From the IMG/VR virus record IMGVR_UViG_3300032092_000015, positions 31,303-95,302 of that record: a stretch of DNA of 64,000 bases, one strand, 5' to 3'. A program made the position numbers and the translations under genes. The stretch is from a virus. The notes under the pieces were generated by a model. It saw only the letters and a program-made list of their open reading frames with translations, ran no database searches and had not been told where the DNA came from. Below, piece by piece: positions 8,115 through 63,381 of this stretch; position 1 is the stretch's first letter; the number at the start of each line of letters is the position of its first letter.

Positions 8115-9560
8115 TTATTTCATTTTGAAACCTAGTTTACCATTACCTGGGTTTGTTGATGATACGTTCGGTGCTTCGAATGAAAGTTTTGCATTAGCAT
8201 CGCTAAATCCTTTTAAATAAAAATGAATCTGGTCTCTTTTAAGATCCACATCCATATATAATTGTTTAACATCTAATTTAGCAACGATGGTTCTTAGTGT
8301 GTTAATATAAGTATCTCCAACACCAAGTTTACCATTTAAAACATCAATAAGTTCTAAGCTTAATGAGTAACTAAATAAGCCAATATACTTTTTACCTTTA
8401 TCTAGTTTGTCCCATTGAACTTTGTCAAATTTGTCAACTCCTCTACCAGAGGATTTAACCAATGGTTGAACGTAAGTTGTAAAGAATTCTTCTCTACCAA
8501 GCTCAGTCATTTTAGCTTGTATAAAACTTTCTAGAGATTTTTCATCTAATGGAACATTTCCAATCAATCCCTTTAACACAGAAATTGATGGCGTATTCAT
8601 AAATTCAGCGCCTTTAATATAACCATCGACTACTGAATTGTTTTCTATAATTTTAAATAAATCGTACAACTGAACTTCTGAAGTTTCAGTAAAATTTTCA
8701 GCTTTTAGATTTTTAATAATATTTGATAGGGTTGGGGCTGCTCCAGATTTATATTTTGAAGATATACCATATCCATCAATATAAAAATCTACTAGTGGAT
8801 TATTTCCAGAAGGAAATGATATTCCATGTTGAGTTGTTACCATATTTAATAGTAATGCAGCTCCTAGAACTTCACCAAAATCTTTACCGATTGTGTTTAG
8901 ATCTGTTACACCAAGAGCATCAATTGCTTCTCTAACATTTTCATCATATCCGATAGTTTCAGAAAACGCTGAAATTGATAATGGATCTTTAAAATATGTT
9001 GAAGGTTTATGCATTGATATTAAATCATAAAGTTCGATTAAAAAACTTTGCATAAAGAGATTAGAGCTATACTTACTGTTAATTGCGCTTTTAACACTGT
9101 TTGATAAAACTGTAGAATTCATATCAGTGTCTTGTGGTAAATTAAGAGAAGTTGGAGTAAGTTCTTTAGATTTAATAGATCCTCTTGGTGGATTATTATC
9201 AACAAATTTAATAACATCTCCGATTGAAACTTTTAAATCTTTTACATCTTCACCGAATGTTACGATGAAAGTTGTAAATTTACCTGAATTAGAACCATTT
9301 GAATATTCTCCAGGTCCAGCAGTTACGATATCGAATTTTGATGCTCCTAATTTATTAAGAGCATCACTGATTGATTTTAGTGCGCTTTTAGAATCTCCAC
9401 CTAAATCAAATCTTAAATCTTTTCCACCATTCTTTGTATTAATTCTACCGGGTCCTAATAATTTCTGCATTGCCGGAAGTACTGTTCCTTCAATCGATCT
9501 TGCTGCTTCATTTAATGCAAGTTGAAATCTTGCTCTAATATCTCCGTAAGTTTGTCCCAT
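8115..9560 (-). CDS. Putative PD-(D/E)XK-nuclease-like phage protein
   Basis: 481 residues. Around residues 255-275, NPLVDFYIDG-YGISSKYKSGAAPTL has the spacing D...(I/S)-S-x-K typical of the PD-(D/E)XK catalytic core. Similar 'PLVD...S.K.G.G' segments occur in uncharacterised T4-like phage genes. A conserved N-terminal region (MGQTYGDIRARFQLALNEAARSI) and a C-terminal helical region are not assigned. Its stop is followed directly by a promoter-like element, and its ATG overlaps the stop of the ligase-like gene by one base, so the two are co-expressed. The nuclease call rests on one motif only. It has no capsid-targeting tag at its N-terminus. Confidence 0.4.
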   Translation of the reverse strand: MGQTYGDIRARFQLALNEAARSIEGTVLPAMQKLLGPGRINTKNGGKDLRFDLGGDSKSALKSISDALNKLGASKFDIVTAGPGEYSNGSNSGKFTTFIVTFGEDVKDLKVSIGDVIKFVDNNPPRGSIKSKELTPTSLNLPQDTDMNSTVLSNSVKSAINSKYSSNLFMQSFLIELYDLISMHKPSTYFKDPLSISAFSETIGYDENVREAIDALGVTDLNTIGKDFGEVLGAALLLNMVTTQHGISFPSGNNPLVDFYIDGYGISSKYKSGAAPTLSNIIKNLKAENFTETSEVQLYDLFKIIENNSVVDGYIKGAEFMNTPSISVLKGLIGNVPLDEKSLESFIQAKMTELGREEFFTTYVQPLVKSSGRGVDKFDKVQWDKLDKGKKYIGLFSYSLSLELIDVLNGKLGVGDTYINTLRTIVAKLDVKQLYMDVDLKRDQIHFYLKGFSDANAKLSFEAPNVSSTNPGNGKLGFKMK

Positions 9561-11416
9561 TATATCTTATTTATAAATTGTTCAAATGTTAAAATATCTT
9601 CTTCAACTTGAATAGATTCCATAGCTGCAAAAGAAGCATCTAATTTCTCTTTTAAATCATTAAACATTCCGTGTAGAGAACGTGGAGTCATTTTATTAAA
9701 CTCTTTTACATTACCATCGCTAAGTGCTTGTCTAACTTTGGTAGCTGAAATATCATCGTCTCCTCTTTGGATTTCATATAAGCCAAATTCAGGAAGTACT
9801 CCAAGTTCTTGACGATATTTATCATTGTTAACCATATATCCATAAGCTTTCATACGGTCAGTTCCAGTGCCCCATAAAACAGGCTCATAATTAGGTCTAA
9901 GTTCATTAAACATAACATCGATTGCAGCAGAAGGAACAACAATAACTTCTTTTAAGAATCTGTATTCGCTCTGTACATTATTAAACATTTGAATTTGAGT
10001 TTCTACATCATAAGGTCTTTTAATAGCATCCTCTTTCTTAGCAGTTTTTGCCTTAACTAAGAATACAATAACTGGATATCCATTTTGCTTATTAAGTGTT
10101 TCTAATACTTTAACGTGACCTAGTGTAAATGGTTGAAATCTACCAACAAAAATATTTACTTTTTCGCGACCTTGTTCTGGATAATCGATCTTTAATGCTT
10201 CAGTAATTTTTTGGCTATTTGCAACTTTATGATGCATTATAAAATTATGAAAGTCAAATACTGCGTTTTCTTCAGTTGGTTCAACATAGATCTTTTGTTC
10301 AATTTTATCCACGATTTCATTAATTTGATTTAAAACCAACCCTGAAATAATAGTTGATTCCTTGGTTCTTTTCTTTCTAAAACTACCTAAAACTATTTTA
10401 TACAATTCAGCAAGAACTGGATTTGAAATATAATCTAGCGTAGTTTCATTTTTAATATATGTTGTATTCAACTTAAATGACTCAATTGTTGCAAAATTAG
10501 CAGAATCAAAATTAGCACCAACATATTTAAATGCATTCTTAGAAAGATATTGATTGTAAATTGCTGAAGTTAACTCAATATATCGTAAATCCGGGTTTGT
10601 TTCGGTTAATTCAATTTCGTCTAAATTAAAACTATTCATATATTCTAATAAATCAACGATGGTGATCTGGTACATATGAGAAGACTCTCTATCGTCATTT
10701 GATTCATTAAGTCTATCGAATGATTCTAATTTATAGGATTTTACTTTAGTTCCATCAATAAAAGAAACTATTAAACCATCAATTTCTTTATCTAAATTTT
10801 CATTTAATGTACTTTTAGTTAAAGATTGATTAAAAATATGATACGCTTCTCTTGTAAACGTATCTTTATTATATCGTTTATTAAATTCGCCTTCATTCAT
10901 TGAAAGTAATTTAATTAAACGATCTTTTTGTTCTGTGTGTAATATACCTTCAAAAATAACGGGTGGCTTTTGTACACCAAACATTCCTGCCCATTTATTA
11001 AGAATAGCAGTATCGTTAATAACTTTTCTAGGTTTTCTATTCTCACCTAAAACCTGAATGTGTGTTAATATTAAATAGTTTGTAGGTAAAGTATCATATT
11101 GATATGGAGAAGCTTCGGCTTCTGGAAGATATTCAAATCCAAATTTCCAATCAATTGGCATATTTTGCTTAACTTCATGTGAAATTGATTGAAAATATTT
11201 AATGGCAGTTTCATATAAAGAAACCATGGTTCTATCGATTGGAGAAAGCTCTTCACTTGATCCGTTTTTATAGAACTCAAATCCATTTAAACTTCTTCTA
11301 ACATATAAAGAAGGGGCTGCGATCTTTTCAGAGACAACAATTTTATCATTCAACATTGAGTTGAATTCATTAATATTTACCGATTGGTATAGATCTCTTA
11401 ATTTTTGTAATGCCAT
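9560..11416 (-). CDS. Ligase-like nucleotidyltransferase fused to NMN-adenylyltransferase-like domain, C-terminal capsid tag
   Basis: 618 residues, three parts. The N-terminal part looks like a covalent nucleotidyltransferase (ligase superfamily): SEKIAAPSLYV (Lys31, motif I position), FGFEYL (93-97, motif III-like), EIDGLIVSF (211-219, motif IV) and VKSYKLE (225-231, motif V). Motif I lacks the usual D-G after the lysine, so activity is uncertain. Residues 420-565 form a cytidylyltransferase-type domain: GRFQPFTLGH holds the (T/H)-x-G-H signature and ISATKVR the I-S-x-T-x-x-R signature, as in NMN adenylyltransferases that make NAD. The last residues ILTFEQFINKI match the capsid-targeting tag, here at the C-terminus. 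It overlaps both neighbours' operon: 1 base with the downstream gene, 1-base gap to the upstream one. Confidence 0.75.
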   Translation of the reverse strand: MALQKLRDLYQSVNINEFNSMLNDKIVVSEKIAAPSLYVRRSLNGFEFYKNGSSEELSPIDRTMVSLYETAIKYFQSISHEVKQNMPIDWKFGFEYLPEAEASPYQYDTLPTNYLILTHIQVLGENRKPRKVINDTAILNKWAGMFGVQKPPVIFEGILHTEQKDRLIKLLSMNEGEFNKRYNKDTFTREAYHIFNQSLTKSTLNENLDKEIDGLIVSFIDGTKVKSYKLESFDRLNESNDDRESSHMYQITIVDLLEYMNSFNLDEIELTETNPDLRYIELTSAIYNQYLSKNAFKYVGANFDSANFATIESFKLNTTYIKNETTLDYISNPVLAELYKIVLGSFRKKRTKESTIISGLVLNQINEIVDKIEQKIYVEPTEENAVFDFHNFIMHHKVANSQKITEALKIDYPEQGREKVNIFVGRFQPFTLGHVKVLETLNKQNGYPVIVFLVKAKTAKKEDAIKRPYDVETQIQMFNNVQSEYRFLKEVIVVPSAAIDVMFNELRPNYEPVLWGTGTDRMKAYGYMVNNDKYRQELGVLPEFGLYEIQRGDDDISATKVRQALSDGNVKEFNKMTPRSLHGMFNDLKEKLDASFAAMESIQVEEDILTFEQFINKI

Positions 11417-44047: not shown

Positions 44048-44329
44048 TTATCGTACTTTAGTATAGTTTTTAGGAACTGTAAAGTCCTTATAGATTTTTA
44101 AATGCGTTGCAGCATCAATATATTTAACAAGGACATCCTGTATTAAAATAATAAAATCACTTAAGTATGCGTTTCTTAAAAGAGCATTTGAAAGTGATTT
44201 AGTCAAAACTGAATTTCTAAAATTATGACCTAGATTTTTTCGATCATCCGCCAATTGATTCTGAAAATCATATAAACTTTCATAACCAGCCGAGAATAAT
44301 CCATCAAATAAATTTTGATTTTCAGCCAT
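44048..44329 (-). CDS. Small hypothetical baseplate-operon protein
   Basis: 93 residues, helical, with an Asn/Leu-rich middle (NSVLTKSLSNALLRNAYLSD) and a hydrophobic IILIQDVLVKYI stretch that is too polar-flanked to call a membrane helix. It overlaps the end of gp6 by one base and ends one base before the 950-residue gene, so it is tightly coupled to the wedge genes. Function unknown; a wedge adaptor is one possibility. Confidence 0.55.
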   Translation of the reverse strand: MAENQNLFDGLFSAGYESLYDFQNQLADDRKNLGHNFRNSVLTKSLSNALLRNAYLSDFIILIQDVLVKYIDAATHLKIYKDFTVPKNYTKVR

Positions 44330-46146
44330 TAGATTTTCTTTCTATTTTGTGTTTGAATCATTGAATAGATTGTGCTTGAAACAGCAGGCTCATCAAAATA
44401 TACCGATAAAGCAGCCATTTCTCCAGCCTTAGCATCGTCCGATACCATGACATTATCTCGATCGTACCAACCTCCTCTGAAAATTGCAACCTCTTCTTTA
44501 CCAAGAATAATATCACCAAATGAATCTAGTCCTATTACACTTTCTGGTAATGCTGCACCTGGTTCGAAATTAACTTGAGTTTCAGTTACAGTCTTTTTAA
44601 AGAATACAAATTTCTGTTTACCATTACCAATTGTTTCCAAAGTAGGAGTTGAAGGAGTTACTGTTACAGTTTTTGAAATATAATAACCATTCTTTCTTGC
44701 AGTTTCTTCAGTTTCAGATACAAATCTAATGTTAACAGAATCGATACCGTCGATAGCTTCAATTACGGCAATTAAATCTGATTTTGGTAAACGATCTCTC
44801 CTAGTAATATTCATTAAATATTCTGATACCTTTGATCGAACTTCAGTATATAAATTTTGTTTAGAATATCCTTCAAAGTATCTAACTTTAATGTCCATTC
44901 TATAATATTTAGCAATTGGATCTACTATTTTTACTTCAGTTGTAACCATTTGCTGTCCAGAGTTTTCTAAAACTCCTAATATTCCGTTTTTCTCATCAGT
45001 TGAAAAGAAGAATTCATTAATATCTAAGCTAAAATAATCTTTATTTTTAGCTAACTTCTTTTTAATGTTCGGCAACATAAATAAATAGATAACATTATCA
45101 TCATCAATATATCCATCATCAGTTGTATTATAGGCATCAAGGTATGAAAATAATCCGTATCTTGATAAGAAATATTCATAATTTTCAGGTGTTGCTAGAA
45201 CAAACGATTTTGATGCGAGCGGAGCAATCATTTTAGTCATTTTTAAATCTTCAGGATCTGAAGCCATTTTAGGAGCCTGCAAGCATTCTAATTCTAATAT
45301 CTTATTTAAATCATAAGTTGTACCCATAGAATCAGCACCTTCGGTAATAAATTTAAACGTAATATCTTTAGCATCATTTAAATTACCAGCTGCACCAGCA
45401 TGAATAATATACTCAACCATTATTGAGCTTCCTTGTTCTGGAATCATACCAAAACTATCATTTCCAAAGTAAATATCTAATCCACCACTAATTCCAGTTT
45501 TAATTAAATAACCCTTGGTTGTTGGTAACATATCGTAAATGCTATCATATTTAGTCCAAAGTTCTCCATTTACCGAAACTCTAGTGTTAAAATGATCAGT
45601 ATATCCTTTAACAGCAATGTTAAAAGACTGTAAAGGTTCTCCAGTTCCAGTTAAGGTTTGTGATTCGTGAGAACCTTGAATTACTGGAATTGTAATGTAT
45701 GCATAGTTAGATTTTTCTAATCTAAATTGATCTGTATTGGTTCTTAAAAGATATTCTAATCCATTTGAATTAGATTTAATAATTGCGTTTGATGGAATAT
45801 TAATACCGTCACCGGCAATTTCACTAGTCGAAGAAGTATTAAGTCTAACTCTAATTTCACCAATTGCAGCTGTTCCTCTAAAAGCATCATGCCCTGCAAT
45901 TCTTGCAAGGCCATAAACTGATTCCGGTTGTTGAGCTGTTAAAATGTTTTGCTCAACTGTCGCATCTTCAATGTAGAAGAAAATAAGTTCTGATATTTCA
46001 GTTATTACTTTAATAATTTGAAAAAACGGAGAAGCAGGTGTAAATACCTCATTTATTCTTCCATATAAACGAGACATATAAATCTTAGTGTCTGCTAAGA
46101 GTTGATTTGCCTGAATTCTAGTTTTTTGTAAAAATGTCATTGCCAT
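44329..46146 (-). CDS. 6: gp6-like baseplate wedge protein (baseplate J family)
   Basis: 605 residues (T4 gp6 is 660). The start FLQKTRIQANQLLADTKIYM and the region INEVFTPASPFFQIIKVITEISELIF match baseplate J/gp6 proteins. The middle has the J-domain hallmark of beta strands ending in GNLNDAKDITFKF, and the C-terminal part (TRRDRLPKSDLIAVIEAIDGIDSVNIRF) matches the dimerising end. It forms the inner ring of the baseplate with gp25 and gp53. It lies directly after gp25, an order conserved in contractile-tail systems. Confidence 0.85.
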   Translation of the reverse strand: MAMTFLQKTRIQANQLLADTKIYMSRLYGRINEVFTPASPFFQIIKVITEISELIFFYIEDATVEQNILTAQQPESVYGLARIAGHDAFRGTAAIGEIRVRLNTSSTSEIAGDGINIPSNAIIKSNSNGLEYLLRTNTDQFRLEKSNYAYITIPVIQGSHESQTLTGTGEPLQSFNIAVKGYTDHFNTRVSVNGELWTKYDSIYDMLPTTKGYLIKTGISGGLDIYFGNDSFGMIPEQGSSIMVEYIIHAGAAGNLNDAKDITFKFITEGADSMGTTYDLNKILELECLQAPKMASDPEDLKMTKMIAPLASKSFVLATPENYEYFLSRYGLFSYLDAYNTTDDGYIDDDNVIYLFMLPNIKKKLAKNKDYFSLDINEFFFSTDEKNGILGVLENSGQQMVTTEVKIVDPIAKYYRMDIKVRYFEGYSKQNLYTEVRSKVSEYLMNITRRDRLPKSDLIAVIEAIDGIDSVNIRFVSETEETARKNGYYISKTVTVTPSTPTLETIGNGKQKFVFFKKTVTETQVNFEPGAALPESVIGLDSFGDIILGKEEVAIFRGGWYDRDNVMVSDDAKAGEMAALSVYFDEPAVSSTIYSMIQTQNRKKI

Positions 46147-46156
46147 CTTAATATAT

Positions 46157-46516
46157 TTATATTACAACCTGTACCGTTTCTTGGCCGCCATCAATATTGA
46201 TATTAATAAAAATAGCATCTCTGTCCGGAGAAGAAGTATCAAATTCAACATCAACAGTAACATTCATTTCTTGAGCAAGAGGAACATATCTAAATAATTG
46301 TTCTTCGATCTCATTCTTAATTTGAGTGTCATTGTAGCTAAATGAATATACTAAATCTTCTAAATTACAACCAAGACCAGGCTCACCCATTATCTCTCCT
46401 CTTCTCGTAAATAATATCACATCAAGATGGGCCAACAAAGTTGCAATTCTAGTATCTGATTGAACTTTGTTTGGATCATAGTTTGGATCGCCATTTGTCT
46501 TAATATACAATTCCAT
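46157..46516 (-). CDS. 25: gp25-like baseplate wedge protein
   Basis: 119 residues (T4 gp25 is 132). The core LDVILFTRRGEIMGEPGLGCNLEDLVYSF is the signature of the gp25/lysozyme-like wedge family, with the E-x-G...G-x-N-L pattern. It joins gp6 in the wedge and is a sheath polymerisation anchor. It lies 10 bases before gp6 and 19 bases after the 277-residue gene. Confidence 0.92.
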   Translation of the reverse strand: MELYIKTNGDPNYDPNKVQSDTRIATLLAHLDVILFTRRGEIMGEPGLGCNLEDLVYSFSYNDTQIKNEIEEQLFRYVPLAQEMNVTVDVEFDTSSPDRDAIFININIDGGQETVQVVI

Positions 46517-46535
46517 TTAGTATCTATCAATATTT

Positions 46536-47369
46536 TTATGAATGCATCATCCAATCAGTTCCTTCGTCCGATTTGATTTCTTCTATAACTGCTTCTAATT
46601 CACTTTCTCCAAGAGACTGAATAGTATCAGCATTAATTGAAATATTACCAGGGAGATTAAACCCAAAAATACTCATTTTATTTCCTAATGCAATTTTAAT
46701 TTTTGCAGCACAATATCTAAAGAATGCTTCATCTTCAAAAAGAGCGCATTGTGGAATTGTTTCATAAATTTCCAATACAACATCTTTCTTAGGAACCTCT
46801 CCTGTGAAACGAATCTCATGTGTTAATTGATTATAGTGGAAACTAATTGGATTATCTACAATTTGTCTAACCATATCAAAATACATTTCATTGATAACAT
46901 AATATTGTAGATTTTCGGCACCTGCCACAGTTCCTGTACCTCCATATAAACCTCCGTATAACATTCTTTCAATTGCAAAGTCTCCAGTTGTAAAAGTTAC
47001 TGAAGTTCCTGCTCCATATCTTGAACCTACCGGCCAAACACCAAATACCGAATAAACCTCTCCTCCACCTGAGGTTAAATCCTCTTTAGGTAAAGTAAAA
47101 GATCTTGTTCTTTTAAAATATTCAGTTTCAAACATTTCTTTTGGAATACCAATAAAGCTTTCTTTCATTGAATACTCATAGTTTTTATGAAACCATTTTT
47201 TAGCTCTTTGTATAATATTCTGAACTTCCTTTTTTGGAAGATTCATTGGAATCATACAAGATCCAGTAATATCATCAGCAAGTTGGTTTACAAAGTCATT
47301 ATAACAAGTATTAGCCCATGATGGTGGGGTTGTTAAATTACCTTCGGTACCTTCATAAATATCGCTCAT
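46536..47369 (-). CDS. Conserved virion protein, baseplate/neck-like
   Basis: 277 residues. The N-terminus is helical with a basic QNIIQRAKKWFHKNYEYS segment. The middle is Gly-rich (MLYGGLYGGTGTVAGAEN). The C-terminal part AKIKIALGNKMSIFGFNLPGNISINADTIQSLGESELEAV is a pattern I recall from uncharacterised T4-like structural genes. No T4 name can be given. It sits just upstream of gp25 and 7 bases after the amidoligase-like gene, consistent with a structural role. Confidence 0.55.
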   Translation of the reverse strand: MSDIYEGTEGNLTTPPSWANTCYNDFVNQLADDITGSCMIPMNLPKKEVQNIIQRAKKWFHKNYEYSMKESFIGIPKEMFETEYFKRTRSFTLPKEDLTSGGGEVYSVFGVWPVGSRYGAGTSVTFTTGDFAIERMLYGGLYGGTGTVAGAENLQYYVINEMYFDMVRQIVDNPISFHYNQLTHEIRFTGEVPKKDVVLEIYETIPQCALFEDEAFFRYCAAKIKIALGNKMSIFGFNLPGNISINADTIQSLGESELEAVIEEIKSDEGTDWMMHS

Positions 47370-47376
47370 ACCTTAA

Positions 47377-48669
47377 TTATATTTTTGTTGAATTTACTAT
47401 TTCAGTATCTTTAAAAACAGCATCCTTAGTGTATTTACCTTCTCTAAAAATACCGTTAAACATTTTTCCAGAGAAAACACCATCAATGCCATACACATAA
47501 CAGTTATTTGTAACGCAGCTTCCATTAACATAAGAAGATCCGATTTTAGATCCTGTAATTTGAGATCCTTGATAGAAATTACACATTTTTAAATCCGAAG
47601 ATTTAACATCGCATTTAAAAATATCGCACTGCGTTAATTCTCCCATAATATCGCACTTAATAAATTCATAATTCATTAAACCGAAACAATATGGTAATTC
47701 ACCTCCTTCAACCTGGACTCTTCCAGAATCAGAATCATAGTTAATATTACCCTTTGTTAATTGACCATTAGTGAATAAGTCAATCACTCTGTCTTTGATT
47801 TGAGGCCAGTAAATATCAATAATCTTAGGATCTTTATTTAAATCAACCATTAAATGCACATCCTTCCAGCCTTTGTTAATATTCTTCCAATCAACTCTAG
47901 CATCAATAATTCTCTTATTTAGATTTAAAATCTTTTTAAGCTCTAATTTATTATTAGGACTAAATCCATCGCTTGACGCTGTTTTCCAAAGTTGTAACAA
48001 GAAAGAATCTAAAAGATTTAAAATTTTAGACTGTTTTTTGTGCCAGTTTTCGCCTCCTAAATATCTAAACTCTAGGTAATTCTTTCTTAATTTTTCAAAG
48101 TTTACTCCATAGTATTTAGATTGAGGGAAAATGAAGTTAGTTTGGTTAATATGATTTCCATCGTATATGTAAGTTTCATTTTTTGGTAAAATAAACTTAA
48201 TTGATTTTGCATAAGCAGAATCTTTTCTTTCTGGAAAGGCTTTCCAAACCTGCTCTTCGTTAAAATCTAGAATAAATTTAAGAGGACTCATTCTAGAAAT
48301 TAAGTATTTGTTTCCAATTAATTTAGGGTCAAAACTTAAATTTAAATGGATCGAAGATCTATTTGTAGTATAACCATTTTTAGCGATCCAATCGCATACT
48401 TTAATAATTACCATTCTACCCTCAGAATATGGTAAAGCGCCGGTGACTAATTCCATTAGTCCGGCGCCACCACTCATATCGGGTTCTATTTTAAATTCGT
48501 TTTTAGTTGGAGAAAATTCACTGTGGTGCTTTTTCTCAATTCGAATCTTTTTACCTAAAACTTCAGCTAATTGCTTTGCTGTTTCTTCAAGGCTAACGTT
48601 TGCATAGAATTCGAATTCAACTCCTACTAGACCATTTTGAAGGATCTCAGAATCTTTTAAGTTAATCAT
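47377..48669 (-). CDS. Amidoligase-like protein fused to pentapeptide repeats
   Basis: 430 residues. The N-terminal 330 residues match the amidoligase (carboxylate-amine ligase, glutamine-synthetase-like fold) pattern: GVEFEFY for the first metal-binding Glu residues, FKIEPDMSGGAGLMELVTGALPY for the D-x-S...E region, and SSIHLNLSF for the conserved His. Residues about 340-420 are a pentapeptide-repeat helix, with five-residue spacing of hydrophobic positions (CDI-MGELT-QCDIF-KCDVK). ATP-dependent peptide-bond formation would be the inferred activity; the target is unknown. It stands among baseplate genes and has its own promoter-like element upstream. Confidence 0.6.
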   Translation of the reverse strand: MINLKDSEILQNGLVGVEFEFYANVSLEETAKQLAEVLGKKIRIEKKHHSEFSPTKNEFKIEPDMSGGAGLMELVTGALPYSEGRMVIIKVCDWIAKNGYTTNRSSIHLNLSFDPKLIGNKYLISRMSPLKFILDFNEEQVWKAFPERKDSAYAKSIKFILPKNETYIYDGNHINQTNFIFPQSKYYGVNFEKLRKNYLEFRYLGGENWHKKQSKILNLLDSFLLQLWKTASSDGFSPNNKLELKKILNLNKRIIDARVDWKNINKGWKDVHLMVDLNKDPKIIDIYWPQIKDRVIDLFTNGQLTKGNINYDSDSGRVQVEGGELPYCFGLMNYEFIKCDIMGELTQCDIFKCDVKSSDLKMCNFYQGSQITGSKIGSSYVNGSCVTNNCYVYGIDGVFSGKMFNGIFREGKYTKDAVFKDTEIVNSTKI

Positions 48670-48716: not shown

Positions 48717-49919
48717 TTAAACTAACTTTAAGAAAACCTTTCTAGTTTCTTCTTCGATTCTACTAATAATCACTGTAATTGGATCCCCTTTCTTAATAGT
48801 AGTAGTATCTACTCCATTTAATTCACTAGTGTGCAACAGTCCAGTGATACCATCCTCGATTTCAATAAATAAACCATAATCTTTAATTGATCTAACGGTT
48901 CCTTGAACTTCAGACGGAACATTGTATCTTTTTGATGCGCCATTCCATGGATTAACTTTGGAATCTAATTTTTGTGTTAGCGTGATTTTAGTATTTGATA
49001 TAATATCTTTAACTAAAAACTTGATTGGTGTACCCGGCTCTAATGTATGTTTTGCATACATTTCAGCGGTTTCTCCTGATAAATCATTAATGTGTATCAT
49101 ACCAGTTAAACATCCGGCAAATTCAACGAATACACCATATTTGGTAGATCCTGTAACATGACCTTCTTGTTCAACTTCGATATTATTTCTAAGATCTTCG
49201 ATCGCATTCGGAATTAATGCTTGTAGGTATTTTCTATGAGATACTACAACAGTTCCTTTTTCATGTGAATACGATACAGGAACAACATATAAATCAGTTC
49301 CAATAATAGATTCAAAATTTGCTAATTTATTAATACCAGCTAAAGAACCTGGCATGAAACATTCAATACCTTGAACTAATACCATGTAACCGCCACCTGG
49401 GATCATTTGATTAACTCGGCCCGGGTATGCTGTATTTTCTTCTTTAGCAGCTTCTAATAACTCATTAAAGATAGCTTGTTTAGTTCCTTCTGTTACTGAA
49501 CCAACTACAAATCCTCTTTCACGGTGTGTTGCGATAACTTTTACACTTAATTCACGATCTTTAACGATCATTTCTCTAAATGATGGAGCCTCTTTTTCAA
49601 TGTCAATATAGATAAATTCTCTATATCCGACATCAATTGTTGCCCATTTACCATCATTTGCCCAGATTTTACCGGTCAATTTGTCGCCGACATTAATGTC
49701 TGGAACCATTGTTGTAAATGACCCAGCATATAAATCATAAAGTTGTTGTGCGTTTTTAGATTGAGAGAAAACCTTAACTCCCTTTGCAACTTTTACATGT
49801 GGGTTGCCTTTTCTTAGTCTCGATGGACAATCTTCGGCATGCGCGTCCCAATCAAAATCAGGATCTCCGGCTACTTGTAAGGTTTTTGTTGTTTTTTGTT
49901 TTACTAATTCTTCTAGCAT
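48717..49919 (-). CDS. Ribosomal protein S1-like protein with four S1 domains
   Basis: 400 residues. After an N-terminal extension of about 75 residues come four S1 RNA-binding OB folds: about 76-144 (VGDKLTGKIW ... ATIDVGYREFIYI), 164-228 (YPGRVNQMIPGGGYMV ...), 249-316 (EGHVTGSTKYGVFVEFAG ... TGMIHINDL) and 336-400 (VQGTVRSIKDYGLFIEIED ... GLLHTSEL). Bacterial S1 has six domains and recruits mRNA to the 30S subunit. A phage version could compete with or replace host S1, or bind phage RNA. It has its own promoter-like element at 49950 and no structural-protein features. The call is firm; its role is inferred. Confidence 0.9.
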   Translation of the reverse strand: MLEELVKQKTTKTLQVAGDPDFDWDAHAEDCPSRLRKGNPHVKVAKGVKVFSQSKNAQQLYDLYAGSFTTMVPDINVGDKLTGKIWANDGKWATIDVGYREFIYIDIEKEAPSFREMIVKDRELSVKVIATHRERGFVVGSVTEGTKQAIFNELLEAAKEENTAYPGRVNQMIPGGGYMVLVQGIECFMPGSLAGINKLANFESIIGTDLYVVPVSYSHEKGTVVVSHRKYLQALIPNAIEDLRNNIEVEQEGHVTGSTKYGVFVEFAGCLTGMIHINDLSGETAEMYAKHTLEPGTPIKFLVKDIISNTKITLTQKLDSKVNPWNGASKRYNVPSEVQGTVRSIKDYGLFIEIEDGITGLLHTSELNGVDTTTIKKGDPITVIISRIEEETRKVFLKLV

Positions 49920-49949
49920 TGTTTTTAAAATTAAAAGTGAATTATACGT

Positions 49950-49956
49950 TATATAT
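49950..49956 (-). promoter_or_regulatory. Putative late promoter (TAATATATAAC)
   Basis: Minus-strand TAATATATAAC about 31 bases before the ATG of the S1-like gene, in a 44-base gap. Confidence 0.45.
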
Positions 49957-49963
49957 TAGATTT

Positions 49964-51751
49964 TTAAAAAGCTGTTGGGACAAAGCCAATCATCGGAATC
50001 GGTGAAGGCGCTGCCGCTATTTGTCCAACATAAATAAATTTAAGTTCCATTATATGTTTAGCACATGCAACTGCAACAGCAGATGCAACAGCCTTAGTTA
50101 TTGGTTGTGTTAATGGTTCAAGTTGAGCTAACTTTCCAGTATTCCAAGCTCTTCTAAGATTTGCTGATAATGATTTTTGACTTCCATAATACAATGGAAT
50201 AAATGTACCGGGAGTTGGAATATTACAAGGGGGGACGGGTGGCGCTGAATTAAATGGAGCTGCGGTAGTACTCATCCAATATGCAATAATAGCTTTAGCC
50301 ATAGTTTCATAAGGATCTTTTTCAGATTCTGGATCTGCATCTTTCTTTTCAGTTATTGCCAACTCATCAATCCATTGTTTCTTTAATGCATGATATTTTT
50401 TTCTATCCTCATCATATAACTTTCTCTTTGCATCGATTCTTTCATTTTCATTAGAATTATTTGCATTAGAATGTTTTTCAAGACTAATATCATCAATGTT
50501 TGCAACATAGCAGAATTTACAAATAAAATAATCAGTCATCCAAGTAGGCCAAACTTCAATATCATCTTTATGTTCTAATTGAATAATCTTCTTGTTTAAC
50601 GGATTTACTAAACCGGTTTTAAGACCAGTGTTACGCTTAATATAAGCTTCATTAGATTCTTTCTTTATTTTATCGTTAACTGCCTTTAAATAAGCATCTA
50701 ACTTAATTCCGTCACTATAAGTTATTCCATCAATTATGATTTGGTATTGAGGATTTACAGTATTAGGTCCATATCCAGGTTTTGGAGTTCTAAGCCTTTT
50801 ATCATATAAATTTTTATACTTTAATGTAACTTCTCCAGTTACAGTAGTAATATCAACTGCTTTTAGTAAAGCTAAACATTTTTCTGCTACCTTTTTGCCA
50901 TAAGAAGATTCATATCCTAATGATAATCTAGTAAGGAACCTGACGAATTTTATATCTTCTGTATTTTGATATAATACTCTTTTTACAAGCAATTCAAATT
51001 TTTGATCTTCTGTTAAATTTAATTTAGTTTTTTGGGTACCGTTTATAACTTCAGCAGGTTTGGTGTTATCATTTGGAACAACAACATCAACACTTTGATT
51101 TAAACTATGTTTAACATCTGGAAATCCAGCATCATCAACACCAATAAGAGTATATTTGAATTTTCCTGGAATATCAAATGGAACATACAGATTAGCTATT
51201 CCAAATTCATCTGAAATAATCTCTAAAGGTTCTCCATTGTTTATAGTATATGTAAATCTATATGGAGCAATTCCATTTTGACCAGTAAAAATTAATATGG
51301 TTTGATTCTGCTCGTCTGGAGTTCCAAATAAACTAGCGCTTGTTAATTCTGGTTTTTCTGGTTCTGGTGGAGGTGGAAAAAATTCATAGAATCTATTGTT
51401 TGGAATAGCATCACCCTTTGATAAAAGCCATTTTTTAAATTCAGCTTCAGCATTATACTTTTTAGGAACCGGTAAACCTTCTAATAAATCACTATAATTA
51501 GGATCTGTAATTTTATCTTCAAGCGTTGGTGATGTAGATTTAAATAAATCATTAAACGCCTTTTTAAAACCTGCTTCTAAAATTGATTTTTGCCCAGATT
51601 TATGTAGATTACCAAATGGAGTTTGTGCTGTTTTGACTGCATTGAAATATTCGTTGGCCATAAACGTACCGAAGTCATCGGGTCCTTTAGAAGACCGACT
51701 TGCGAGTTTTGATGATACGTTATTTATAAATATTGGCCACTGTGCAGGCAT
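49964..51751 (-). CDS. Virion protein with flavobacterial-type Ig-like domain
   Basis: 595 residues. The start MPAQWPIFINNVSSKLASRSSKGPDDFG is helical. After a Pro-rich hinge (FFPPPPEPEKPE, about 125-135) residues 148-210 form an Ig-like module with NGIAPYRFTYTINNGEP and PGKFKYTLIGVDDAG, a style abundant in secreted proteins of flavobacteria. The C-terminal 330 residues are helical and charged with unknown function; a Cys pair in DYFICKFCYV (about 415-425) is notable. It lies between the gp5-like spike and the S1 gene. Probably a baseplate-attached protein. Confidence 0.6.
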   Translation of the reverse strand: MPAQWPIFINNVSSKLASRSSKGPDDFGTFMANEYFNAVKTAQTPFGNLHKSGQKSILEAGFKKAFNDLFKSTSPTLEDKITDPNYSDLLEGLPVPKKYNAEAEFKKWLLSKGDAIPNNRFYEFFPPPPEPEKPELTSASLFGTPDEQNQTILIFTGQNGIAPYRFTYTINNGEPLEIISDEFGIANLYVPFDIPGKFKYTLIGVDDAGFPDVKHSLNQSVDVVVPNDNTKPAEVINGTQKTKLNLTEDQKFELLVKRVLYQNTEDIKFVRFLTRLSLGYESSYGKKVAEKCLALLKAVDITTVTGEVTLKYKNLYDKRLRTPKPGYGPNTVNPQYQIIIDGITYSDGIKLDAYLKAVNDKIKKESNEAYIKRNTGLKTGLVNPLNKKIIQLEHKDDIEVWPTWMTDYFICKFCYVANIDDISLEKHSNANNSNENERIDAKRKLYDEDRKKYHALKKQWIDELAITEKKDADPESEKDPYETMAKAIIAYWMSTTAAPFNSAPPVPPCNIPTPGTFIPLYYGSQKSLSANLRRAWNTGKLAQLEPLTQPITKAVASAVAVACAKHIMELKFIYVGQIAAAPSPIPMIGFVPTAF

Positions 51752-51787: not shown

Positions 51788-52516
51788 TTATTTACCCTTT
51801 TGCTGATACGTTTTATGCTTACCCTTCAGACTAGATATTGTTGCTGGAGTCGGAGGAGATGGAGGACCAGATGGACCGGTCGGAGTTGGGTGAATGTGCT
51901 TTTGATAATCATCTAATAATTGATTTAACCATTTTTCAAGAGAAACACCACGAACTGCTGGTTCTGCTTCATCTTCAGAAGCTTCACCGGTATTAGATAA
52001 AAATATATTACCAGAATCTAAAAAGATTTTGGCATCAGTACTAATTTTAATAATATTCTTTTCATCGATTTGAATTAGGGGTCTCTCCTTAGCACCCTTT
52101 CCTCGTGTGATAATTATACCATCTTTTGGAGAATGATAAATCCTGATGTTACGGATTTCATCATACACTAATGAAATTGTCTGTTGAGCTTCGTCTTCTG
52201 ATAGCGCGTCTAAGACCTCGGATTTTAAAGCTTTGCGTTGATTAACTTGGAAAAAATACTCAGGGTGGTACATGTTACCATTATCAAATCGAACTGATAC
52301 GATATCGTCAACGTTAGGAACACTATGTGCTCCTACATTATTTCTATTTCCATTAGCAGCCCATGGAATATCTTCGGGAGGTACAGTGTCGAACTTTCCA
52401 AACACCATAACTTTACATCTACCATTTTTTAATGGATCTTTATTATCTAAGACTTTTCCAAGCCAATGGGTGTCTCTGATATTATCGCTTCCTCCTATTT
52501 CGTCGACTGTTGTCAT
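51788..52516 (-). CDS. gp5-like baseplate central spike (OB fold, no lysozyme domain)
   Basis: 242 residues. The N-terminal HWLGKVLDNKDPLKNGRCKVMVFG is the OB fold of gp5/VgrG-type spikes, followed by PNVDDIVSVRFDNGNMYHPEYF. The segment IRIYHSPKDGIIITRGKG then IDEKNIIKISTDAKIFLDSGNI is the start of a triple-stranded beta-helix. A Pro-rich end with KHIHPTPTGPSGPPSP contains the H-x-H-P found before spike tips. T4 gp5 has a lysozyme domain; none is seen here. The ATG overlaps the stop of the upstream gene by one base, and an SD-like GGAAG lies upstream of the start. Confidence 0.8.
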   Translation of the reverse strand: MTTVDEIGGSDNIRDTHWLGKVLDNKDPLKNGRCKVMVFGKFDTVPPEDIPWAANGNRNNVGAHSVPNVDDIVSVRFDNGNMYHPEYFFQVNQRKALKSEVLDALSEDEAQQTISLVYDEIRNIRIYHSPKDGIIITRGKGAKERPLIQIDEKNIIKISTDAKIFLDSGNIFLSNTGEASEDEAEPAVRGVSLEKWLNQLLDDYQKHIHPTPTGPSGPPSPPTPATISSLKGKHKTYQQKGK

Positions 52517-62660: not shown

Positions 62661-63127
62661 TAAAGATCTTCACCTTCTTTTGGTTCTTTAAGGAATGTAT
62701 AACCGTCAGGAATATGTCCCCAAATAAGAAGTGATTTTAACCATCTAGTCATTTCTCCATCTCTAAAGAAATACGGTGATTTCATATTCTGCTTCATTCC
62801 AATCATTCGACTATTAAATGAAACTTGTTTACCACACCAAAACCACATAGCTGGGGTCCAATTTTTTTCAGCATCTTCAAACGTTTTGCCAGATGGTATC
62901 ATCTTAATAAGCATTTCGGCTGATTCTTTACCAGTGTCGATGCCTGCGTTCTTTGCCTGTTTCTGAGTTAAACCTGCATCTTGGCCATGTCTTGACTCTC
63001 TAAACTGTTTAATCTGAGCTGGAGTCATATTGATTAATTCCTTCCAAGATTTATACAAATCCTCAGAAGGTTCAGCGCTTCTGTCTTCAGCTTCAAGAAT
63101 AAATTGTTCGAAAGTTTTAAACTTCAT
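62660..63127 (-). CDS. Tagged internal head protein
   Basis: 155 residues. MKFKTFEQFILEAEDRSAE is a strong copy of the capsid-targeting peptide. The body, INMTPAQIKQFRESRHGQDAGLT followed by AGIDTGKESAEMLIKMIPSG, is a helical sequence I have seen in uncharacterised phage and bacterial proteins but cannot name, and KNWTPAMWFWCGKQVSFNSRM is aromatic-rich. The start overlaps the upstream gene by one base. Confidence 0.62.
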   Translation of the reverse strand: MKFKTFEQFILEAEDRSAEPSEDLYKSWKELINMTPAQIKQFRESRHGQDAGLTQKQAKNAGIDTGKESAEMLIKMIPSGKTFEDAEKNWTPAMWFWCGKQVSFNSRMIGMKQNMKSPYFFRDGEMTRWLKSLLIWGHIPDGYTFLKEPKEGEDL

Positions 63128-63381
63128 TACGCCTTAGGTTTCTTATTATACTTTCTTTTAGGCTTTGCTTCTACTGCAGAAGAAACGGCAACTTCTTTTT
63201 TAGGCTGCTTTTTAGCTTTTGGTTTAGCAGTCATTTTAGGAGTTTCTTTCTTTGCTTCAAATGCTTTTACCTCAGCATGATCGCTTGCAATAGAATCTTC
63301 TTCATTTTTCTTAAGGTAGTTAAATGCTAACAATACTACACCAAGAACAATTGCAATTGAGAAAATAATTTGTGTTGTCAT
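63127..63381 (-). CDS. Small single-pass membrane protein with basic tail
   Basis: 84 residues. An N-terminal transmembrane helix (about 4-22, QIIFSIAIVLGVVLLAFNY) is followed by a Lys/Ala/Pro-rich tail (KPKAKKQPKKEV ... KPKRKYNKKPKA), probably cytoplasmic and possibly DNA- or membrane-binding. No family recognised. A promoter-like GATATATAG lies about 33 bases upstream. Confidence 0.6.
   Translation of the reverse strand: MTTQIIFSIAIVLGVVLLAFNYLKKNEEDSIASDHAEVKAFEAKKETPKMTAKPKAKKQPKKEVAVSSAVEAKPKRKYNKKPKA

Follow-up and report, generated by a model that had tools for sequence, protein, structure and literature searches.

A bS1 homologue conserved in the tail-gene block of an environmental phage group with a likely Bacteroidota host

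The window, the 64-kb stretch of DNA analysed here, is the last 64 kb of an IMG/VR record totalling 95,302 bp, and nearly all of its genes are carried on the minus strand. The original prediction, made for positions 48717-49919, named no strand. The gene lies on the minus strand, where an intact open reading frame of 400 codons runs from an ATG start to a TAA stop, and the plus strand across the same interval has many stops. The gene, the parts of its product and its surroundings are as follows.

44329..47369, minus strand: baseplate/adaptor genes (Ad2-like adaptor, gp25-like, gp6-like), from context
47377..48669, minus strand: Amidoligase_2 gene, conserved neighbour downstream of S1, from context
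48717..49919, minus strand: phage bS1 homologue gene (D1-D4), 400 aa, from the ORF, phmmer, NCBIfam and profile-profile alignment
48723..48923, minus strand: OB4, about residues 333-399, with RNA-face residues Y348, F351 and H363, from Pfam, AlphaFold2 and alignment
48969..49178, minus strand: OB3, about residues 248-317, with RNA-face residues Y261, F264 and H276, from Pfam, AlphaFold2 and alignment
49230..49442, minus strand: OB2, about residues 160-230, the best conserved part within the phage clade, from AlphaFold2
49485..49703, minus strand: OB1, about residues 73-145, divergent, with D96/R100 aligned with E. coli D39/K43, from AlphaFold2 and alignments
49728..49859, minus strand: N-terminal segment, residues 21-64, with the FDWD motif, a phage-only block and a helix aligned with the uS2-docking helix, from alignment and AlphaFold2
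49920..49948, minus strand: A/U-rich leader without a Shine-Dalgarno site, from a leader scan
49949..49956, minus strand: ATATATAA promoter-like box, 29 nt before the S1 start codon, from its recurrence in intergenic DNA and in relatives
51788..52516, minus strand: gp5-like baseplate hub gene, from context

S1 is flanked on one side by the gp5-like hub gene and a variable 595-aa gene, and on the other by the amidoligase, the Ad2-like adaptor, gp25 and gp6. The 595-aa gene (49964-51751, minus strand), located between hub and S1, is highly variable and is replaced or absent in relatives, with its neighbours conserved. In almost all relatives, Amidoligase_2 is the next gene downstream of S1. Each of the six S1-bearing huge phages in the phage collection has an Amidoligase_2 homologue, including those in which it is distant from S1; the Lak and Tenacibaculum phages have none. 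That the amidoligase substrate might be linked to ribosomal proteins, like RimK with bS6, is only a guess by analogy. Elsewhere in the window, positions 9560-11416 (minus strand) encode a protein of 618 aa that ends in a nucleotidyltransferase domain at its C terminus (cytidyltransferase/NMN adenylyltransferase-like).

Pfam recognises two stretches of the S1 protein above cut-off (PF00575, 65 bits), corresponding to D3 and D4. D1 and D2 have diverged beyond the reach of Pfam, and are revealed by phmmer, profile-profile alignment and AlphaFold2. In the phmmer search, residues 81-398 match residues 24-345 of E. coli bS1 (E 3e-39), while the profile built from 17 phage relatives gives a single colinear alignment to cellular bS1, covering residues 21-398 (E 1.3e-37). 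The AlphaFold2 model consists of four OB beads on a flexible chain (mean pLDDT 74, about 80 within the beads; pTM 0.45), and Foldseek matches it best to the bS1 bound in the 30S mRNA delivery complex (9gut, E 7.6e-26). Together, these methods confirm the four S1 OB folds of the original prediction.

The prediction had also held that no nuclease or polymerase domain is present, and neither of these nor any other catalytic domain was found in the 400-aa protein by Pfam or NCBIfam. PNPase, RNase R and other S1-domain enzymes were ruled out by this absence. Among NCBIfam models, those for bS1 rank first, at about 154 bits (154.5), versus 60 for CvfD and 53 for PNPase, so that bS1 outscores every other S1-domain family. 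With the colinearity to D1-D4, this bears out the proposed homology: judged from sequence, the product is a true bS1 homologue, and not an unrelated S1-domain protein. A bS1 equivalog is defined by six domains, as in Bacteroidota and E. coli, and by the NCBIfam equivalog cut-offs (368 and above). The phage S1 lacks D5-D6 and its 154.5 bits fall below these cut-offs; it is therefore named a bS1 homologue rather than an equivalog.

The phage proteins form a lineage of their own. In a tree of D2-D4, they are split from 17 cellular bS1 rows by a branch with 100/100 support and about 3.2 changes per site, although fine placement within the tree is limited by such long branches. The phage side comprises the window's group, Lak phages, phages of 462-735 kb and a stray rumen MAG contig. 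Phylogeny against host S1 had been proposed as a check; it sets the phage clade apart from cellular bS1. Recent capture of a host bS1 was rejected, given the long branch outside all cellular bS1 and an identity of about 26-28% to any cellular S1. The cellular rows were drawn from chromosome-like records in a plasmid collection, together with some from faecal scaffolds, and the E. coli row in the tree and alignment carries what we take to be the E. coli bS1 sequence.

Several further records deserve mention. The deposited 'Bacteriophage sp.' human faecal scaffolds L159-L162, found as tblastn matches, carry bS1 of the cellular type and appear to be contamination from bacteria; they were left out of the phage counts. 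The Erysipelotrichaceae MAG contig ONCO01000010.1 has a phage-type S1 beside gp25/gp6-like genes at its end, and is probably phage DNA that was misassembled or misbinned. In the huge phages LR756502 and LR745206, another S1-domain ORF, about 645 aa long, lies at a separate place in the genome.

The N terminus carries a possible sign of the ancestry of this lineage. The FDWD motif of the phage S1 (F-x-W-[DE] in its phage form) is also present in Bacteroidota bS1: F-x-W was found in 7/7 sampled Bacteroidota proteins and was absent from the other cellular bS1 inspected. Since the motif is confined to Bacteroidota among these, the phage N terminus is likely to reflect either descent from a Bacteroidota bS1 or convergence on a shared docking site. 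In the phage proteins, including those of Lak, an extra conserved block separates the motif from the OB1 helix; it continues into KV[YF]S and then into a helix with 'AQ'. Only the later part is retained by the more distant 462-kb phage group. An equivalence of this 'AQ' with E. coli A6-Q7, suggested by an alignment by eye, was not supported by the multiple alignment.

In E. coli, bS1 contacts uS2 through F5/F9 and K43 (PMC10123108). The multiple alignment shows that the phage S1 keeps the hydrophobic pair aligned with F5/F9, a basic residue at the position of K43 (27/27 proteins) and Asp at that of D39 (26/27). The RNA-face residues of D3 and D4 (Y/F, F, H) are likewise kept in 27/27, and variation within the main family is confined to Y/F exchange. 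The pocket lysine of OB2 (E. coli K117) is lost, and OB1 is highly divergent.

A Bacteroidetes host had been assumed from the start. The genome collection yielded only two S1 loci, neither informative on the host, and a query with Flavobacterium johnsoniae bS1 gave no matches among viral contigs. The N-terminal motif and the Bacteroidia-type bS21 of the closest relative, described below, make a Bacteroidota host likely for the window's phage.

S1 is a constant component of this phage group. An S1 relative is encoded in 492/505 pattern-matched IMG/VR stretches, and S1 is present in every gp6 locus (56/56) and every Ad2 locus (66/66) with enough flank; these two sets overlap and are not independent, and no S1 loss was seen among them. 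Pairwise dN/dS values of 0.06-0.16 indicate purifying selection. The IMG/VR relatives examined share the gene order around S1, and most of it recurs in a 462-kb phage that has an S1 of 37% identity. S1-domain proteins are absent from the complete genomes of two Tenacibaculum phages whose gp6 is related (28-30%).

Many S1-bearing phages also encode bS21. It was found in 28/45 S1-bearing records (9/16 and 19/29 in two sets). By coordinates, six of the 17 records without it end too close upstream of S1, which gives an informative ratio of 28/39, with about a quarter of informative records lacking bS21. Neither of the two related, S1-less Tenacibaculum phages encodes it. In environmental records, the bS21 gene shares the strand of S1 and is found about 16-37 kb upstream of it; the distance is about 20-25 kb, on the opposite strand, in phages of 635 and 642 kb, and about 140 kb in a 735-kb phage. 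The co-occurrence of S1 and bS21 may partly reflect shared ancestry. In two relatives, an ORF of 84-95 aa overlaps the start of the bS21 gene (L323, 9144-9398; L326, 2098-2385), an arrangement that suggests possible translational coupling.

No bS21 was found in the window's own record. The closest long-contig relative (S1 73% identical) is colinear with the window up to the window edge, and has its bS21 about 4 kb past the gene matching the window's last ORF. The window's record ends about 4 kb short of this position, so the absence is uninformative. The relative's bS21 is of the Bacteroidia type, with its best match in F. johnsoniae (E 4.5e-15), and keeps Tyr54, the tyrosine reported to stack on the anti-SD region (PMC9723584).

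The original prediction placed a promoter-like element before S1, among structural genes. S1 does lie amid baseplate genes, and a recurrent ATATATAA box stands upstream of it. The total count of this box in the window is not raised, and the signal therefore lies in the position of the copies: 11/16 coding-strand copies are intergenic, in 3.5% of the sequence, versus 1.3 expected. A box of this type occurs within 70 nt upstream of S1 in 22/27 representative relatives versus 3.9 in shuffles. A scan for the sigma-70 consensus gave no excess (80 vs 81) and was discarded as promoter evidence in favour of the ATATATAA box. We infer late S1 expression from gene placement only. Elsewhere in the window, the leader of an 84-aa gene (63127-63381, minus strand), with a ATATATAG box followed by TTAACCATTTTAAAA, resembles the conserved S1 leader.

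Leaders in the window are A-rich, and SD-like sites precede 2/83 genes versus 2.9 expected. The A/U-rich leaders without Shine-Dalgarno sites on which the prediction had drawn are thus real, but they are not evidence for the function of S1. The Tenacibaculum phage pT24, which has no S1-domain protein, is equally SD-free (1/44 leaders versus 1.2 expected), and the trait therefore does not discriminate. It is a trait of Bacteroidota hosts and no pointer to S1. An SD correlation was taken as support for the role of S1 in huge phages (PMC7162821); the pT24 leaders show host confounding here, and the same confounding may apply there.

Bacteroidota choose start codons without Shine-Dalgarno pairing, and bS1 is a leading candidate for this choice (PMC3155529); with F. 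johnsoniae bS1, initiation on an SD-less mRNA increases about two-fold (PMC9976891). It is fairly probable, as far as sequence can tell, that the window's protein is a phage-lineage bS1, consisting of D1-D4, that acts at the host 30S late in infection and favours initiation on phage mRNAs. The N-terminal segment and OB1 would dock on uS2, on the side where mRNA exits, as host bS1 does, and OB3-OB4 would hold A/U-rich 5' leaders. Late in infection, the phage S1 would join or replace the loosely bound host bS1, so that initiation is favoured on phage structural mRNAs. We infer that the protein binds ribosomes, prefers phage mRNA and displaces host S1. Ribosome targeting gains new support from the bS21 gene that so often accompanies S1: many relatives would make a phage bS21 as well, and since this protein is the platform neighbour of bS1 OB1, with its C terminus contacting OB1 in E. 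coli (PMC10123108), both proteins probably act at one site. Against this reading stand the divergent OB1, the lost K117, the missing D5-D6, leaders that do not discriminate, the quarter or so of informative S1-bearing records without bS21, and a linkage to tail genes that would also fit a role in the virion.

The shortened S1 might instead be a decoy that occupies the uS2 site and mainly shuts off S1-dependent host initiation. Overproduced residues 1-106 of E. coli bS1 do displace native bS1 and inhibit canonical translation (PMC3296737), and the absence of D5-D6 would suit such a role. However, a pure decoy would have no need of the invariant RNA-face residues of D3-D4, its action would also hit the phage's own leaders, which are SD-less and A-rich like those expected of host genes, and S1 sits with late structural genes. 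This makes a decoy unlikely.

A virion component is quite unlikely. S1 would then be built into the tail or baseplate, or be packaged and injected, with its OB folds serving assembly or early RNA handling. Its position in a tail/baseplate block that stays invariant among relatives down to 37% identity, and from which it is never missing in the gp6/Ad2 loci tested, is what such a role predicts. In Lak phage, however, S1 adjoins Thg1 and DnaB, away from tail genes; the Tenacibaculum phages have related gp6 and gp25 neighbours without S1; no significant PHROG structural match was obtained; and the bS1-type RNA-face residues are retained. An off-ribosome RNA factor (a stabiliser of phage mRNA, an RNA chaperone or a cofactor of a phage nuclease, compare T4 RegB) has precedent in such roles of host S1 during infection by T4 and further phages (review: PMC13157829), but is very unlikely given the retained uS2-contact features of the N terminus and OB1, the co-encoded bS21, which points to the ribosome, and the lack of a RegB match in a search run without a positive control.

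Phage-encoded S1 and the translation-hijack hypothesis are already known (PMC7162821; also PMC13157829), rpS1 of huge phages and its proposed role having been published in 2020 (Al-Shayeb et al. 2020, PMC7162821). Those rpS1 proteins (among them those of the deposited phages LR756500-LR756504 and LR745206) and that of Lak fall in the same tree clade as the window's S1, with the same colinear bS1 homology, scarce Shine-Dalgarno sites and the same proposed role. That study saw S1 in a few genomes, whereas the window's phage belongs to a large environmental group with S1 inside the tail block in every locus tested. The jumbo cyanophage PhiMa05 also encodes a bS1 (PMC13157829); compared by description, that protein came from a Vampirovibrio-like host with five further ribosomal proteins, whereas the one described here belongs to an old phage lineage. 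Bacteroidota bS1 (F. johnsoniae 9zcd, Bacteroides, Prevotella) shares with the phage S1 the colinearity of D1-D4, F-x-W, the K43-type basic residue and the RNA-face residues; the phage protein differs in lacking D5-D6, in being about 26% identical, in its extra N-terminal block and in its separate clade.

The bS21 of Bacteroidetes phages (Chen et al. 2022, PMC9723584) is likewise a protein of the 30S mRNA platform, encoded in the structural-gene region of Bacteroidetes myoviruses. Its late expression was shown in that paper, where it lies on the reverse strand relative to the structural genes (on the same strand in relatives of the window's phage); S1, a different protein, is not mentioned in the available part. 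The core-gene status of S1, its single old phage clade, its Bacteroidota-type N terminus and its pairing with bS21 were not found in the open-licence papers searched and appear unreported.

With S1 in hundreds of related viruses, and bS21 in many of them, the phage S1 probably helps to turn host ribosomes to viral messages. It is also conceivable, if tentative, that bS1 and bS21 form a two-part kit that rebuilds the Bacteroidota 30S mRNA platform late in infection and yields phage-specialised ribosomes in hosts that dispense with Shine-Dalgarno pairing, S1 being the universal and bS21 the optional half. Because this phage lineage has retained a bS1 of its own among its core genes over long evolutionary times, frequently alongside bS21, it lends itself to a test of how start codons are chosen, and comparing phage and host bS1 and bS21 would bear on whether such phages make specialised ribosomes or merely borrow those of the host.
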